IMG/VR virus record: IMGVR_UViG_3300023179_000543
Span: 1-22,795 of that record
Length of the DNA stretch: 22,795 nt
From: a virus
Direction: 5' to 3' (one strand)
Part shown: one piece after another, positions 10,690-22,795 of the stretch
How the letters are laid out: each line of letters begins with the position of its first letter
How positions within the stretch are numbered: position 1 is the first letter of the stretch
The notes under the pieces: model-generated
What the model saw: the letters and a program-made list of their open reading frames with translations, nothing else
The model's database searches: none
What the model was told of the DNA's origin: nothing
Made by a program: the position numbers and the translations under genes

Positions 10690-11334
10690 TCAGGCCCTCA
10701 TGCTGTTGTAAGCGGCCATGAGCGACGCCTTGATTTCGGTCGTCTTGGACGGGTCGAGATTGCTGTACGAGTACTGGCCGAGGCTCTCGCTGGCAAGGCC
10801 GAAGTTGCGGCCGCGTGCCGAGTAGGCAAGGTCCGTCAGGCGGTAGCACGCCATCTTCAGGTCGGCCGGAAGCAGGTCTGTTGGGGTCCGTGCATACCCA
10901 GCGGTGTACACCACTTCGATGTTCTGCCAGCCCTCGTCGAACCACGGCTGCACGCTGAATGTCGCGTTGACGGTGCCGAAGGCTGTGACTGGGAATCGCC
11001 CCTTCTTCGGGTCGATGCGAGACAGCACGCCCGAGTCGGCATCGACGCGGTACGTGGTCGAGTCGTATGCCTGCGAGGTTCCGTCGGCCTGATAGAGCGT
11101 CACGCTGGCGACGCTGGTGACAGGCCATTCCTTCAGTTGGATGGTCTGCTCGTTGTTGCCGTCGTATCGCTCGGTGCGGCTCACCGACTCGAATCCGTCG
11201 GTAAGGTTCCGATCGCACCAGCGTCGGACCTCCATCGACACGGCATCCACCAGCACCGTCAGCAGTGCGTCCTGTGCGGTTCCGCTGATGCCTGCCCAGA
11301 CCTTGTACTCGGCGATGGAGATGAGGCTTGCCAT
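10690..11334 (-). CDS. Head-tail connector protein, gp6-like
   Basis: A 214-residue protein with the gp6-like connector pattern: N-terminal helices (SIAEYKVWAGISGTAQDALLTVLVDAVSMEVRRWCDRNL), then a beta-rich insert typical of these proteins (QTIQLKEWPVTSVASVTLYQADG, VVYTAGY), and C-terminal helices (LLPADLKMACYRLTDLAYSARGRNFGLASESLG-YSYS). The sequence LPADLKMAC and the SESLG-YS tail are familiar in this family. It would form the ring under the portal. Its start overlaps the previous stop (TAATG) and the next ATG is 2 nt after its own stop, so translation is coupled. Length is somewhat above the smallest members because of the beta insert. Confidence 0.87.
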   Translation of the reverse strand: MASLISIAEYKVWAGISGTAQDALLTVLVDAVSMEVRRWCDRNLTDGFESVSRTERYDGNNEQTIQLKEWPVTSVASVTLYQADGTSQAYDSTTYRVDADSGVLSRIDPKKGRFPVTAFGTVNATFSVQPWFDEGWQNIEVVYTAGYARTPTDLLPADLKMACYRLTDLAYSARGRNFGLASESLGQYSYSNLDPSKTTEIKASLMAAYNSMRA

Positions 11335-11906
11335 TAGAGCACCTGTGCGACGATGGGGAACTCGGCAGCGGCGGGGTTCAGCGTGACGAACGAAGAGTCT
11401 GTTTGCACCAGCACGAGCACTGCCTTGGCGCCACGCAACTCGTAGCCGTCGTTGCTGGTTGGCGTGGTGATGCTTAGGCCTGTGCTCTGGATCGCCTGCG
11501 GTGAACCTGCGAGGCTCGAGACCGTCGTGCCTGCTGCGTTGAACGTCGCGGCATCAAGCCGCCAGAAGATCGTGCCAGTCGGGAATACGCCAGAAGCGTT
11601 CGGCACTTTGTCAGCACCAAACACTCGCACGGCCGCTTCCGTGGCATCAGTCCACGTGGTTGCCGACGCATACCTCAACGCGAGCCTGATCTTGGTGCCG
11701 ACGCCGCCGACGATGATCGGAATGTGCGACGAAGCCTTGGCGTCGCTCGAGTACGTGCCGGGATTGAGCAGCACGCCAGCGGCGACTGCCGCAGCCTTGG
11801 AATCGGTGACCACCATCTGCCACGTGCCGGCCTCGATTCCAGACGGCAACGACACATCCGATCCGCCATTCGTGAACGTCGCCGCACTGGTGACAGGTGC
11901 CGCCAT
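11334..11906 (-). CDS. Virion surface or decoration protein candidate, paralogue 2
   Basis: A 190-residue paralogue of the gene starting at 12460, with the same opening MAAPVTSAATF and the conserved core GVFPTGTIFWRLDAATFN and SNDGYELRGAKAVLVL. Divergent segments carry most of the variation (for example residues 12-40). The ATG at 11906 has GAGGAG 6 nt upstream, inside the 3' end of its paralogue's leader; the two genes are separated by 8 nt. It ends in TAATG, overlapping the connector gene. Its predicted fold is mainly beta. Having two diverged copies suggests either a heteromeric surface layer or that one copy is specialised. Confidence 0.7.
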   Translation of the reverse strand: MAAPVTSAATFTNGGSDVSLPSGIEAGTWQMVVTDSKAAAVAAGVLLNPGTYSSDAKASSHIPIIVGGVGTKIRLALRYASATTWTDATEAAVRVFGADKVPNASGVFPTGTIFWRLDAATFNAAGTTVSSLAGSPQAIQSTGLSITTPTSNDGYELRGAKAVLVLVQTDSSFVTLNPAAAEFPIVAQVL

Positions 11907-11914
11907 GTCGCTCC

Positions 11915-12460
11915 TCAGTTGATGACCTGTGCGAGAACGCGGCACACGGTGTCAGCACCGCCGCTGATGCTGGCCGCGGTCGAGTGCAGGACGATCACGC
12001 TCTTGGCTCCGAGCAGGGCGTAGCCGTCGTTGCTATATGGCGTCGAATAGGCAAAGGTGCCGTCCTGCTGACTAGACGACGCCGCGGCCATCGTCATCGT
12101 CAGGCCCGTGCCCGTGAACGTGTTCGCGTCCAGCCGCCAGAAGATCGTGCCCGTCGGATACACGCCGCTGGTGTCGGGAATCTGATTAGCACCAAGCACG
12201 CGAACGACAGGGCTCGTGGTGATCGTCGTGACAGCATCATCAAACTTGGTGATGAGTCGGATCTTGGTGCCGACGTTGATGATGAGCGGGTGAATGTCAA
12301 CGCTCGAGTATGAGCCCGGGTTGAGCAGCACGCTCGCACCGATGGCGGTGTTGCTGACGTTGTCATGCACCTGCACCCACTCGCCGAAGATGTTGCTGGC
12401 ATACGTGATGCCGCCGCCGCCTGCACTGAATGTCGCCGCCGATGTGACTGGTGCTGCCAT
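11915..12460 (-). CDS. Virion surface or decoration protein candidate, paralogue 1
   Basis: A 181-residue beta-rich protein with GGAG 8 nt before its ATG. It is a clear paralogue of the next gene (starting at 11906): both begin MAAPVTSAATF and share VLLNPG-YSS, VGTKIRL, YPTGTIFWRLDA (FPTGTIFWRLDA in the other) and SNDGY-L-GAK. The shared blocks are in the same order and spacing, so it is a tandem duplication with strong divergence between blocks. No signal peptide or membrane segment is seen. Placement between capsid and connector genes suggests a capsid-surface or minor structural role. Position supports a virion role, while the exact location on the particle is inference. Confidence 0.7.
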   Translation of the reverse strand: MAAPVTSAATFSAGGGGITYASNIFGEWVQVHDNVSNTAIGASVLLNPGSYSSVDIHPLIINVGTKIRLITKFDDAVTTITTSPVVRVLGANQIPDTSGVYPTGTIFWRLDANTFTGTGLTMTMAAASSSQQDGTFAYSTPYSNDGYALLGAKSVIVLHSTAASISGGADTVCRVLAQVIN

Positions 12461-12483
12461 GGGATTCTCCGTTTGGAATCCGC

Positions 12484-12505
12484 CCGACCGGCGGTAGCCG
12501 ATCGG
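12484..12505 (-). other. Hairpin between two structural genes
   Basis: An 8-bp stem with one G-U pair (CCGATCGG, loop CTACCG, CCGGTCGG on the minus strand) fills the 68-nt gap before the gene starting at 12460. There is no T-run. It may tune expression of the following genes relative to the capsid genes. Confidence 0.35.
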
Positions 12506-12528
12506 AGCGGGTTGTGTGAGCAGGTCGA

Positions 12529-13014
12529 TCAGATCGCGACCGTCGAACGGTCGAGCAGGCCAGCCTGCACCGCACGGGCGATTTCCGTCGCACCGTTGAT
12601 GCCAGTGCCCGGACCCTCGCCGATCCACAGCACGCACGAGAGCGTGGCCGACGCGCTGTAGTCCAACTCGAGGCGGAGGTACCGCTTCAGCGTTCCGCCG
12701 GTGCGGACGTTGATGGTGCGGATCGTGCTGGCGTTGGTCGCCGCTACAAGCGATCCCGTGAGAGCGGTGCTTCCGGTAGTCACGTCCGACCACGAGGAGT
12801 TGTCGTCCGAGTGCTGCAACTTCGGCTGAGCGCCGAGGTCGCCGCCGACCGCACCGAAGATCAGCACCGCCGTCCACGACGTGCAGTTGCCGCGTCCGGT
12901 GTTCAGCGTGCTCTGGAGGTCCAGAGCGGTGGTGCCGAACGCCGCCGTGTCGGAGCGAGACTGGGGAGCGTAACCGAGGAAGAACACTGCGTTCTGGAGG
13001 GAAGATTCACTCAT
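12529..13014 (-). CDS. Small head or decoration protein candidate
   Basis: A 161-residue protein directly after the capsid gene. It is beta-rich and polar, with the pattern WTAVLIFGAVGG, KLQHSDDNSSWSDVT and RYLRLELDYSASATLSCVLWIG. Proteins of this type after the capsid gene are often capsid-surface or decoration proteins in phages. The pattern of a deviation strand followed by an S-DD-SS-W turn and a final RYLRL strand is common among them. No enzyme motif is seen. The C-terminus (GATEIARAVQAGLLDRSTVAI) is helical. The ribosome site is weak (AGAAAGACGAA). The call rests on position and beta content. Confidence 0.65.
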   Translation of the reverse strand: MSESSLQNAVFFLGYAPQSRSDTAAFGTTALDLQSTLNTGRGNCTSWTAVLIFGAVGGDLGAQPKLQHSDDNSSWSDVTTGSTALTGSLVAATNASTIRTINVRTGGTLKRYLRLELDYSASATLSCVLWIGEGPGTGINGATEIARAVQAGLLDRSTVAI

Positions 13015-20776: not shown

Positions 20777-21088
20777 CAGGCGTACGAGGCGGGTAGCGTC
20801 GATGCGGGCGATCGTTCCGTCGGGCCACCTGACGACGGCGACCAGCACGGACGGGATAGGAGCCCACGGGACGCACGCGAGGAGGATGCCACTGCGTCGG
20901 ATGGGGGGACCCTCGAGAAGCCGCCAGACGGCCTCCACGGGGCCGCCGATTGGCATGGCCTTGGCCCTGCGTCTGGCCTCGGCCTCGGCCTTGCGTCGGG
21001 CCTTCTCGCGGGCATGGTCATGGGGAAGGACGCGCTCGTACGGCGGCGTCCATGGCGTGTTCTTAGACCCGGCGACGATCCGCGGCAT
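20765..21088 (-). CDS. Small basic protein, unknown function
   Basis: A 107-residue protein whose ATG lies inside the end of the nuclease gene (26-nt overlap). Residues 27-45 form a strongly basic Ala/Arg/Lys helix (AREKARRKAEAEARRRAKA). The second half is a small beta-rich unit (GILLACVPWAPIPSVLVAVVRWPDGTIARIDATRLVRLRV), reminiscent of an SH3-like fold. A basic helix plus a small barrel would suit nucleic-acid binding, but this is inference. Its last codons contain the 13-bp element CGGGTACACTGAC, and the stop codon falls inside that element. Confidence 0.65.
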   Translation of the reverse strand: MPRIVAGSKNTPWTPPYERVLPHDHAREKARRKAEAEARRRAKAMPIGGPVEAVWRLLEGPPIRRSGILLACVPWAPIPSVLVAVVRWPDGTIARIDATRLVRLRVH

Positions 21089-21398
21089 TGGCGATCGCCT
21101 CCAGTGCTTCGGCCGCGGATCGGGCGAGGATGTAGACGCCGCCGGCGTCGGTCCAGCGTTGAGCCCATTCGCGTTGGGTGTCGGTCTGCCTGCCGGTGGT
21201 CGTCTTGACCTCGATGGCGACCGGTATGCCGTCCACGACGCCGATCAGGTCGGCGGTGCCGGGCTTGGCGCCACGGATGAATCGGTCGCCGACGGCGAAG
21301 GATCCGGACTGGACGCGGACGACGAGAGAGCGTGCCCCGTGCATGACGGCCAAGGCCTGCTCGATGCTTCGGGTGATGGCGTTCTCAGCCTTGCCCAT
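21063..21398 (-). CDS. VRR-NUC-type PD-(D/E)XK nuclease
   Basis: A 111-residue protein with the compact VRR-NUC layout: N-terminal helix with an acidic residue (AENAITRSIEQAL), then GTADLIGVVDG with Asp50, then IPVAIEVKT with Glu63 and Lys65, then a Q-rich helix (RQTDTQREW) and GGVYILARS. The D...ExK pair plus the downstream Gln is the PD-(D/E)XK active-site pattern. VRR-NUC proteins are found widely in phages, where Holliday-junction resolution or DNA end processing has been proposed; the substrate here is inferred. An alternative start at 21455 would add 19 residues, but the domain begins normally at 21398. It overlaps both neighbours, consistent with one operon. Confidence 0.85.
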   Translation of the reverse strand: MGKAENAITRSIEQALAVMHGARSLVVRVQSGSFAVGDRFIRGAKPGTADLIGVVDGIPVAIEVKTTTGRQTDTQREWAQRWTDAGGVYILARSAAEALEAIANAADRRRV

Positions 21399-21528
21399 CG
21401 GTGTCGTCCGGCGTGGTGCATTGGTCCAGCCGAAGTATACAGGCCGCGAGTTCATCGCCGAGCCGCTGCACCTCGGCCTCGAGCCAATGGACGCGAGCGA
21501 TCAGGGCCAAGGCTTCGTCGTCGCTCAC
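21385..21528 (-). CDS. Very small coiled-coil protein, 47 residues
   Basis: Starts at GTG with the shared cassette (AAGGGGGC then CAAGTGAGCGACGA). The start at 21528 is preferred over an open reading frame beginning at 21639, which would overlap the previous gene. Residues 4-35 (ALALIARVHWLEAEVQRLGDELAACILRL) form an amphipathic heptad pattern, so a short coiled coil is expected. The tail is acidic (TTPDDTDGQG). Its 3' end overlaps the start of the nuclease gene by 14 nt. Function is unknown; the size and pattern suit a small accessory or regulatory protein. Confidence 0.65.
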   Translation of the reverse strand: MSDDEALALIARVHWLEAEVQRLGDELAACILRLDQCTTPDDTDGQG

Positions 21529-21544
21529 TTGGCCCCCTTCGCCC
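21520..21544 (-). repeat. Start cassette, right end, copy 3
   Basis: GGGCGAAGGGGG-C-CAAGTGAGCGACGA: start of the 47-residue gene. Here the RAKGAK reading is out of frame with the preceding gene, which has already stopped, so the DNA is conserved without the upstream protein. Confidence 0.7.
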
Positions 21545-21547
21545 TCG

Positions 21548-21877
21548 TCAGGGCAACTTGCCAGACCACTTCGATTCAACGCAGTCGATGTAGAGAACCA
21601 CGCTGCCCTTGTGAGCACGCACGGCGCCGCACTGGTCAAGGACCGTGTCCTTGGTCGGACCGTTCAAGGCGATCTCGCCAAGGCCCTTCGTCGTGCCCCA
21701 CACGCGGATCACGCTCGCGTTGCCGATGAACACGTCGTCGCCGCTGATGGCCACCATGCCGACGACCACCCAGCCGCGTTGCAGGACCACGATCTGGAGT
21801 TGCTGCTGCGTGATGTGGTCGCTCTCGACGCCGAGAGCCTTGTTGACCGCCGTTTCGATTGCCTTCTGAATCAACAT
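21548..21877 (-). CDS. Hypothetical phage protein, 109 residues
   Basis: An ATG start at 21877 lies two codons after an in-frame TGA, so no longer start exists. The ribosome site is not classical: GTGAGTGAGG abuts the ATG closely. The N-terminus (MLIQKAIETAVNKALGVESDHITQQQLQIVVLQ) is helical. The rest alternates short hydrophobic strands (VVVGMVAIS, VFIGNASVIRVWG, SVVLYIDCVE), suggesting a small mixed alpha/beta or beta-barrel domain. No catalytic motif or membrane segment is evident. It sits between the glycine-repeat gene and a tiny coiled-coil gene and shares their direction and close packing. I do not recognise its family. Confidence 0.75.
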   Translation of the reverse strand: MLIQKAIETAVNKALGVESDHITQQQLQIVVLQRGWVVVGMVAISGDDVFIGNASVIRVWGTTKGLGEIALNGPTKDTVLDQCGAVRAHKGSVVLYIDCVESKWSGKLP

Positions 21878-21906
21878 TCCTCACTCACTTTCTGCGGCTG
21901 TGCCGC

Positions 21907-22191
21907 TTAGTAACCAATGCCATAGCCGTTGCCATAGCCGTTGCCGTAGCCGTTGCCGTAGCCGTAGCCGTAGCCAAAGCCATCGCCGTAGCCGTAGCCG
22001 TTGCCGTAGCCGTTGCCGTTACCGTAGCCGTTGCCTTCGCCGTCGCCGTAGCCGTAGCCAAAGCCATCGCCGTAGCCGTTGCCGTAGCCGAATCCGTAGC
22101 CGTAGCCGTTACCGTAGCCGTTGCCGTAGCCAAAGCCGTCGCCGTAGCCGTTGCCGAAGTTGATCAGACTGTGTGCATCTTCGTCGCTCAC
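21907..22191 (-). CDS. Alternating-glycine (GYGNGYGD) low-complexity protein
   Basis: A 94-residue protein starting at GTG in a GTGA overlap, with AAGGAGG upstream. After a short acidic head (MSDEDAHSLINF), every second residue from 13 to the end is glycine. The residues between are almost only Tyr, Asn, Phe and Asp, with single Glu and Ile. The coding DNA is a hexamer-like repeat of GGC-TAC and GGC-AAC codons. There is no signal peptide or membrane segment. The stop codon, the strong ribosome site shared with neighbouring genes and the clean reading frame argue that it is expressed. Such alternation favours beta-sheet, silk-like or amyloid-like assemblies, or an adhesive or condensate-forming chain; this is inference from composition. 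The opposite-strand reading (alternating Ala-Val) is a shadow. Confidence 0.7.
   Translation of the reverse strand: MSDEDAHSLINFGNGYGDGFGYGNGYGNGYGYGFGYGNGYGDGFGYGYGDGEGNGYGNGNGYGNGYGYGDGFGYGYGYGNGYGNGYGNGYGIGY
21910..22155 (-). repeat. Six-base GGCTAC/GGCAAC tandem repeat
   Basis: The DNA coding for the alternating-glycine protein is a degenerate tandem repeat of six-base units on the minus strand, mostly GGCTAC and GGCAAC with some GGCGAC and GGCTTC. Because the unit is a multiple of three, gain or loss of copies changes protein length without breaking the frame. Confidence 0.85.
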
Positions 22192-22207
22192 TTGGCCTCC
22201 TTCACCC
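22183..22207 (-). repeat. Start cassette, right end, copy 2
   Basis: GGGTGAAGGAGG-C-CAAGTGAGCGACGA: ribosome site and GTG start of the alternating-glycine gene. It encodes RVKEAK at the end of the upstream gene. Two mismatches to copy 1. Confidence 0.7.
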
Positions 22208-22493
22208 GCTCACGGAGCATGGCATCCGCGATGGCATAGGCATCACCGGCAATCTCGGCCGCACCCTCGCACTCGCCGGTCATGGTGTTGCAGTCCAACA
22301 TCATGAGACGATCTGGCGCTGTCAGGTCGGCATCGGAATCGTGCTGGGCATCTTCCAAGCCTCGCAACGTTTTCCGATACGATCCGACCATGGCTTGCAT
22401 GGCCTTTGCCGCGAAGTAGTCGCGGAGTGAAAGGTTGTAGGTCACGCTTCCGCCGTTTTTTGGCAGACTGTCAATGTTTGGTACGTTGCTCAT
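22188..22493 (-). CDS. Conserved small phage protein of the LRDYFAAKAMQ type, unknown function
   Basis: A 101-residue protein. The ATG at 22493 overlaps the previous stop (ATGA) and has GGAGGAG about 6 nt upstream, which decides against a longer reading from 22547. The segment LRDYFAAKAMQAMVGSY (about residues 24-40) and the tail AGDAYAIADAMLRER resemble a small protein found in many phages and prophages of Gram-negative bacteria, where a DYFAAKAMQ-type N-terminus and a YAIADAML-type C-terminus recur. That family has no established function that I know of. The residues between 45 and 80 are variable and acidic. Its last codons carry the ribosome site and GTGA overlap used by the glycine-repeat gene. 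Confidence 0.8.
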   Translation of the reverse strand: MSNVPNIDSLPKNGGSVTYNLSLRDYFAAKAMQAMVGSYRKTLRGLEDAQHDSDADLTAPDRLMMLDCNTMTGECEGAAEIAGDAYAIADAMLRERVKEAK

Positions 22494-22777
22494 TGCTTCT
22501 CCTCCAATGCCTTCGCCGCGTCGGTGGCTCGGCGTGCATCTGCCCACTGTTGTCTACAAAACTCCAATGCGATTGGCGATGAATCACCAAGCCTTCGTGC
22601 CGCCCTGACCTTCGCCGCGAGAACGTCGCGGTCGCGTTCGAGTTGCTTGATGTATTGCTCGACCTCAAACGCTTGCCATTCGCAATCCACGCTCAAGCAC
22701 CGCAGATGGTGCATGACTCGCTCGCTGCTGATCGGCACGCCGCACTCCGCCGCCATCTGGTGATAGTCGTCGCTCAC
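22490..22777 (-). CDS. Small helical phage protein, unknown function
   Basis: A 95-residue protein starting at GTG. The start is supported by a strong AAGGAGG ribosome site about 6 nt upstream and by near-identity of the start region (CAAGTGAGCGACGA) to those of two other genes in this window. The first half holds two cysteines (C-L-S-V-D-C). Residues 38-95 are charged and mostly helical, with heptad-like spacing (YIKQLERDRDVLAAKVRAAR), so a short coiled coil is likely. It ends in an ATGA overlap with the next gene, suggesting translational coupling. I do not recognise the family; small proteins of this type are common in phage accessory regions. Confidence 0.75.
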   Translation of the reverse strand: MSDDYHQMAAECGVPISSERVMHHLRCLSVDCEWQAFEVEQYIKQLERDRDVLAAKVRAARRLGDSSPIALEFCRQQWADARRATDAAKALEEKQ

Positions 22778-22793
22778 TTGTCCTCCTTCGCCC
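22769..22793 (-). repeat. Start cassette, right end, copy 1
   Basis: GGGCGAAGGAGG-A-CAAGTGAGCGACGA on the minus strand: ribosome site plus GTG start of the 95-residue gene, also encoding the last residues RAKEDK of the upstream gene. Confidence 0.7.
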
Positions 22794-22795
22794 GC
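22774..22795 (-). CDS. C-terminal end of an upstream gene (partial)
   Basis: The last bases of the window read, on the minus strand, as the codons R-A-K-E-D-K followed by TGA. This TGA overlaps the GTG start of the next gene in a GTGA junction. The same arrangement, R-V-K-E-A-K then GTGA, occurs where a complete gene ends at 22188. I therefore read this as the tail of a gene lying beyond the right edge. Nothing can be said about its function, and so short a fragment may be coincidental. Confidence 0.35.

Follow-up and report, generated by a model that had tools for sequence, protein, structure and literature searches.

Three neighbouring small genes at the edge of a phage genome begin with the same short sequence and encode different proteins, which raises the question of whether this start is a signal for translation, a trace of duplication or a place at which genes are exchanged. 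The window analysed here is a whole IMG/VR record of 22,795 bases from a tailed phage with its genes on the minus strand; the region in question forms its right edge, upstream of the terminase, portal and capsid genes (Table 1). In INPHARED, the best terminase match was Thermobifida phage P1312 (48%), followed by Streptomyces phages, which suggests, although it does not prove, an actinobacterial host, and in 84,980 species genomes the same search returned only two distant relatives (Lentzea, 39%, and a Chloroflexi MAG, 44%). Based on the comparisons described below, we consider it highly probable that the shared start is a 22-bp translation-start linker that marks gene junctions in a single hypervariable small-gene island of this group of uncultured phages and also serves as a homology joint at which modules are shuffled.

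Table 1. Positions in the window of the linker copies, the small genes around them and the genes used for orientation.
Feature	Position	Strand	Remarks
Linker copy 1, GCGGGCGAAGGAGGACAAGTGA	22774..22795, cassette to 22766 (24-mer 22789-22766)	minus	GTG 22777, starts 95-aa gene
Small gene A95	22490..22777	minus	family F00; GTG in linker 1; no Pfam match above cut-off
Small gene B101	22188..22493	minus	family F07, PHROG 2201; 3' end RERVKEAK* within linker 2
Linker copy 2, GCGGGTGAAGGAGGCCAAGTGA	22188..22209, cassette to 22180 (24-mer 22203-22180)	minus	GTG 22191
GYG, glycine/tyrosine/asparagine repeat gene	21907..22191	minus	GTG in linker 2; conserved N-terminal EDAHSLI
AAAGTGAGTGAGGAATG, internal junction of GYG-D109 pair	21875..21891	minus	invariant in relatives having the pair
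Small gene D109	21548..21877	minus	family F09; travels with GYG
Linker copy 3, GAGGGCGAAGGGGGCCAAGTGA	21525..21546, cassette to 21517 (24-mer 21540-21517)	minus	GTG 21528; downstream of D109 stop
Small gene E47	21385..21528	minus	family F00; GTG in linker 3
VRR-NUC / Holliday junction resolvase-like gene	21063..21398	minus	fixed right border of shuffling island
Terminase large subunit	19329-17989	minus	
Portal	17985-15277	minus	
Capsid	about 14526-13060	minus	

The 24-mer GAAGGRGGMCAAGTGAGCGACGAM was found in three minus-strand copies in the window, the same three when up to 3 mismatches were tolerated, and in none of 100 dinucleotide shuffles. As the original prediction stated, these copies hold the GTG starts of three small genes, the products of which are unlike each other beyond M-S-D-D/E; A95 and E47 are joined in one loose family by weak chained BLASTP links. 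It was also correct that two copies encode the tail of the gene before: linker 2 codes for the end of B101 with the GTGA overlap, and the frame at linker 1 reads RAKEDK*, with the upstream gene itself past the contig edge. A gene that ends exactly in RAKEDK* at a linker is present in L035-L037 and L039, and the 30 bp at the contig edge are 100% identical to L037 5223-5252, despite different downstream genes. At copy 3, the tail is out of frame as had been described, with D109 stopping at KLP* ahead of the linker, which is non-coding for that gene. The proposed decayed fourth version at 21891-21875 is present as a sequence, but it has 11/16 mismatches to the core, and we rejected it as a linker copy because all relatives that bear the glycine-rich/109-aa pair have this sequence as the unchanging junction inside the pair.

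Two other repeats were observed elsewhere in the window. GTACACTG, mostly as CGGGTACACTGAC, has five copies on the coding strand (20773, 18029, 14580, 9316 and 3554; minus) and none on the other; some lie shortly before genes, and in most of the relatives that were checked it precedes the ATG of an F02-type gene. As a 14-mer with 3 mismatches allowed it is only mildly enriched (7 compared with 2.9 expected), and three copies are exact; with its -10-like TACACT, it is a candidate phage promoter. The neighbouring genes at 11334-12877 have direct repeats of 16-20 bp in common and encode similar proteins, both with APVTSAATF, which are probably a paralogous pair of virion proteins.

Relatives were collected by a terminase search, which gave 80 loci, approximately half of them at 67-93% identity and all of them assembled metagenomic contigs. 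Many hold several cassette-like sequences, each ahead of a different gene; absence from relatives, which would have refuted the original prediction, was therefore not observed. An alignment of 20 junctions from the window and its relatives, with differing neighbours, delimited a conserved unit of 22 bp with sharp edges, GCGGGCGAAGGAGGCCAAGTGA, which ends one base past the start codon; in its flanks, pairwise identity is ~0.25-0.5 at most positions, a background level on the right and close to one on the left. The predicted shared element is therefore real in this form, while the M-S-D-D/E codons that had been included in it are largely an extension specific to the window. A95-like DNA in L020 starts with GTGAGCGACGACTATCA, GYG outside the window with GTGACAAACGAAGATGC or GTGAATTACGAAGATGC and E47 in L010 with ATGACCGACGACGA. 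Since the GYG and E47 starts differ elsewhere, the GCGACGA that follows linker copies 2 and 3 is particular to the window's lineage among the compared genomes, and its sharing is consistent with exchange or conversion that ran a few bases beyond the linker. A purely local duplication inside the window's phage would agree with three copies within 1.3 kb and with the extension GTGAGCGACGA, which is common to all three only in the window. However, the linker and its shuffled partners are spread over relatives with 67-91% terminase identity, which refutes local duplication as the sole origin and leaves it next to no probability.

Linker-bearing contigs carry 2-4 copies, which on the contigs searched whole are clustered within about 1 kb, and the single small-gene island that houses them extends from a DnaB-like helicase gene to the VRR-NUC/resolvase-like gene. 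A scan of IMG/VR with the 22-mer matched 16 stretches, 14 of which were on contigs already known from the terminase search. The remaining two were G002 (L098), the contig of which ends right after the linkers, short of any terminase position, and G001 (L090), a 42.7-kb phage with no matching terminase. No relative of the window's terminase, portal or capsid was detectable in G001, which carries a linker-F00-linker unit (L103/L104). A collagen-like repeat protein of this phage resembles that at 5902-3911 in the window, with 64% over 200 aa that may stem from low complexity. In the 84,980 species genomes, no match was found to a 22-bp pattern with slight degeneracy.

In the linker, AAGGAGG provides a 7-nt Shine-Dalgarno match, a spacer of 4 nt separates it from the GTG start, and GTGA overlaps a TGA stop. 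The match is 7 nt long at 13 of 15 linker starts, compared with a median of 4 nt for the other 94 starts predicted in these regions. Linker starts have the strongest Shine-Dalgarno matches in the region. Together with the overlap, which suggests translational coupling to the upstream gene, this bears out the earlier idea of a translation signal. One frame codes for the upstream tail R-A-K-E-A-K, and when the upstream gene stops earlier, the linker becomes an untranslated leader; the best reading is that it may work as a strong translation start independent of frame. It could be argued that it is only this, a favoured translational or regulatory start signal such as was proposed for the Start-Associated Sequences (SAS), in which selection keeps or regains the similarity and exchange is incidental. 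Its location at starts, the AAGGAGG and the GTGA overlap all fit, as do near-matches where the junction is stable, for example F10-F05 (GAAGGGGGCCGAGTGA), and the exact 23-mer cassette that occurs once each, with no other linker, in three unrelated phages (L005, L008 and L009). Because of these three phages, resemblance at a start alone is not proof of descent; they show that Shine-Dalgarno, GTG and S-D-(D/E) starts also arise independently, and the case for a shuffling linker is one of combinatorics and breakpoints. Nonetheless, conservation is almost as high in GCGGGC, which takes no part in the Shine-Dalgarno pairing, even at junctions where these bases are non-coding. The breaks in identity blocks and recombinants fall within the linker, a 31-bp form, TGCCCTGACGCGGGCGAAGGAGGCCAAGTGA, is common to genes that read it in different frames, and we regard a start signal alone as improbable.

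The combinatorics are visible in the gene orders, which were derived with a simple ORF caller and BLASTP families and are approximate. The window reads A95-B101-GYG-D109-E47-VRR, L029 reads F00-GYG-D109-B101-F19 and L036 reads F00-F17-B101-GYG-D109; L035 and L037 have the order of L036 with the linker-GYG-D109 unit in tandem duplicate. Shorter arrangements are B101-GYG-D109-F19 in L038, B101-F19 in L039, E47-like ... B101-VRR in L018, E47-like-VRR in L019 and E47-like-A95-like-F22-VRR in L020. Copy 3 of the window joins the GYG-D109 pair to E47; at the same linker in L010, the nearest relative, E47 follows an F00 gene instead. Three upstream ends (a, B101; b, D109; c, F00) were paired with at least seven right partners, and three 2x2 sets are complete with all four combinations: the B101 and D109 ends with GYG and F19, the B101 and F00 ends with F22 and VRR, and the D109 and F00 ends with B101 and E47. 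Unless there was recombination, or separate insertions were each directed to the linker, such full sets would be very hard to obtain. Comparison of the relatives shows, at the level of sequence, that the linker persists whatever its left and right neighbours and that it holds or adjoins the breakpoints at which genes or gene pairs were exchanged, gained or lost, and duplicated in tandem. Recombination at the junctions, as first proposed, is thus upheld by free left/right combination, linker-bounded presence and absence, duplication, transfer and recombinants within the linker. As a separate observation, the F00 proteins (window, L010, L018-L020, L029 and L037) look chimaeric, with exchangeable N- and C-terminal parts, and A95 matches two adjacent L020 genes, each by a different stretch, which suggests recombination within genes too.

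The breakpoints can be placed closely. In L098, the 70 bp on the left are identical to L037 and the 70 bp on the right match L020 with 1 mismatch; L038 is a recombinant of the same kind, with its left from L037 and its right from L029. In both, the breakpoint must be inside the linker because the parents agree only there. L029 2694-2981 and L018 787-1074 are 95.8% identical over exactly linker-B101-linker with nothing adjoining in common, compared with 68.8% for VRR and 80.9% for TerL. L037 and L039 share 2,109 bp at 100% up to 4 bp beyond a linker, followed by different genes, and in L037 and L038, TerL and VRR are 100% identical but different genes follow a linker. Copy 3 of the window is a junction of this kind too: the window is 93.3% identical to L010 rightward from 1241 (reverse coordinates), with D109 and F00, respectively, as the left gene. 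Among internal homology-block ends, 41 of 90 fall at linkers (within 15 bp in both sequences), against a null mean of 6.8 and a maximum of 16 in 5,000 simulations, a count that is descriptive since the pairs are related and non-independent; the other 49 lie in the island away from linkers. L143, whose left genes are L020-like (about 90-96% aa) and right genes L037/L039-like (97-100%) around a B101 that ends in a linker variant, is a probable further recombinant.

The concentration of breakpoints at the linker, and the arrival of one linker-bounded gene in an otherwise unrelated phage, might also point to a specific recombination site (for a recombinase, Chi-like or nuclease-targeted) that directs the insertion of modules. 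We find this very unlikely: by inspection the linker has no apparent dyad symmetry, no integrase or transposase was seen beside it, there is no target duplication beyond the linker itself, and ordinary short homology accounts for the data. No recombinase was found among the proteins scanned from these incomplete genomes. False joins of strains at a short repeat during metagenome assembly are conceivable for relatives that are all assembled contigs, but datasets with separate numbers share several of the arrangements (L018/L022/L024, L020/L021/L023, L029/L030 and L035/L037), and the longest k-mers in normal assembly practice exceed the 22-31 bp in question, which makes such an artefact extremely improbable.

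The modules themselves differ in their histories. D109 is ~91% identical (aa) in relatives with terminases only 70-76% identical, and it ends in KLP* or KLL* ahead of the linker, in WREVLK* ahead of another gene (L036) or in WSGK* (L111/L112). The 31-bp form is common to D109 and F00 junctions: the F00 gene of L020 reads it as ...LTRAKEAK*, and in L029 it contains the D109 stop. Since it is used in different frames, the simplest reading is that D109 gained its linker when it was joined, out of frame, to the end of an F00 gene. With distant relatives in Rheinheimera phages (about 53% over 65%) and relatives of about 40-58% in many other viral contigs, D109 is a widely travelled gene. GYG is built of 6/12-nt repeats that encode Gly-Tyr/Asn/Asp-Gly units and varies from 48 to 94 aa among relatives, keeping its N-terminal EDAHSLI and last residues; the hairpin GCGGC-ACA-GCCGC (21893-21905) between its stop and D109 is, by eye, largely kept in relatives. 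B101 had no match in INPHARED, and its PHROG matches are families of unknown function only; Pfam, PHROGs and PADLOC gave no function for any shuffled gene.

The linker as a translation start that doubles as a homology joint would work as follows. During co-infection, modules may be exchanged by homologous recombination or strand annealing across the short shared sequence, and the linker would be retained since any module joined there is translated at once, and the stop-start overlap would make its translation dependent on that of the upstream gene. The stretches examined yielded no annealing recombinase; it is tempting to see the adjacent resolvase-like gene, which matches phrog_5702, as a putative partner of the exchange. 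The expression of a joined gene in any upstream reading frame would be a simple reason why shuffling is tolerated. A stronger claim, that the linker is a dedicated dual-purpose adaptor and that the small genes are actively shuffled in a manner integron-like in effect without an integrase, is doubtful; were it true, phages with partly unrelated backbones would be swapping ready-to-translate genes. The linker could also be used to locate mobile small genes without known function in phages.

Among known systems, the closest in position are SAS and their extended form (ESAS) of Cluster K mycobacteriophages and Cluster EF Microbacterium phages (PMC3203893, PMC7302621). As these papers describe them, they too are short asymmetric repeats that occupy the ribosome-site position, in one orientation, ahead of non-structural genes from different families, their conservation exceeds what the ribosome site needs, and the upstream stop codon is sometimes inside. 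The linker likewise is an asymmetric repeat at that position before several unrelated genes. However, its GCGGGCGAAGGAGGCCAAGTGA has only the Shine-Dalgarno core in common with the SAS consensus (GGGATAGGAGCCC / GGGAAAGGACCCC), and SAS stand mostly before ATG after gaps >50 bp, unlike the linker with its mostly GTG starts and stop-start overlap; a linker gene either has a 4-bp overlap with the upstream stop or starts within about 20 bp after it. Cluster K phages have 11-19 SAS copies, of which about half bear an inverted-repeat extension, against the 2-4 copies of the linker, and shuffling across the repeat, which is demonstrable for the linker, is not among the properties given for SAS in these accounts (PMC3203893, PMC7302621). 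The PeSL cassettes of T4-type phages (Arbiol 2010 and Comeau 2014, as summarised in PMC4503421) are similarly short repeated expression signals between small genes that are shuffled as modules among related phages. They are described as units of an early promoter and a stem-loop terminator, unlike the linker, which is a ribosome site with a start codon; the 22-bp unit holds the Shine-Dalgarno sequence and the start codon, and its flanks are not conserved. Finally, short conserved boundary sequences were proposed to explain phage mosaicism, although they are not identifiable at most boundaries (PMC3029335). As in these, including the ~50-bp case of Island3 and Brujita, homologous recombination at a short shared sequence would explain the linker junctions, and mosaic breakpoints do lie inside the shared sequence. 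Two adjacent Island3 genes share a C-terminal tail of 18 residues, much as several genes of the linker island share RAKEAK. Unlike in Island3 and Brujita (PMC3029335), one sequence recurs at many junctions of the linker island, and the combinatorics can be read directly. Here, the parents, the shared sequence and the ~22-bp breakpoints are visible together, and the sequence is itself a translation start. SAS, PeSL and boundary sequences were already known; what is new is a ribosome-site linker that very probably acts as a boundary sequence.
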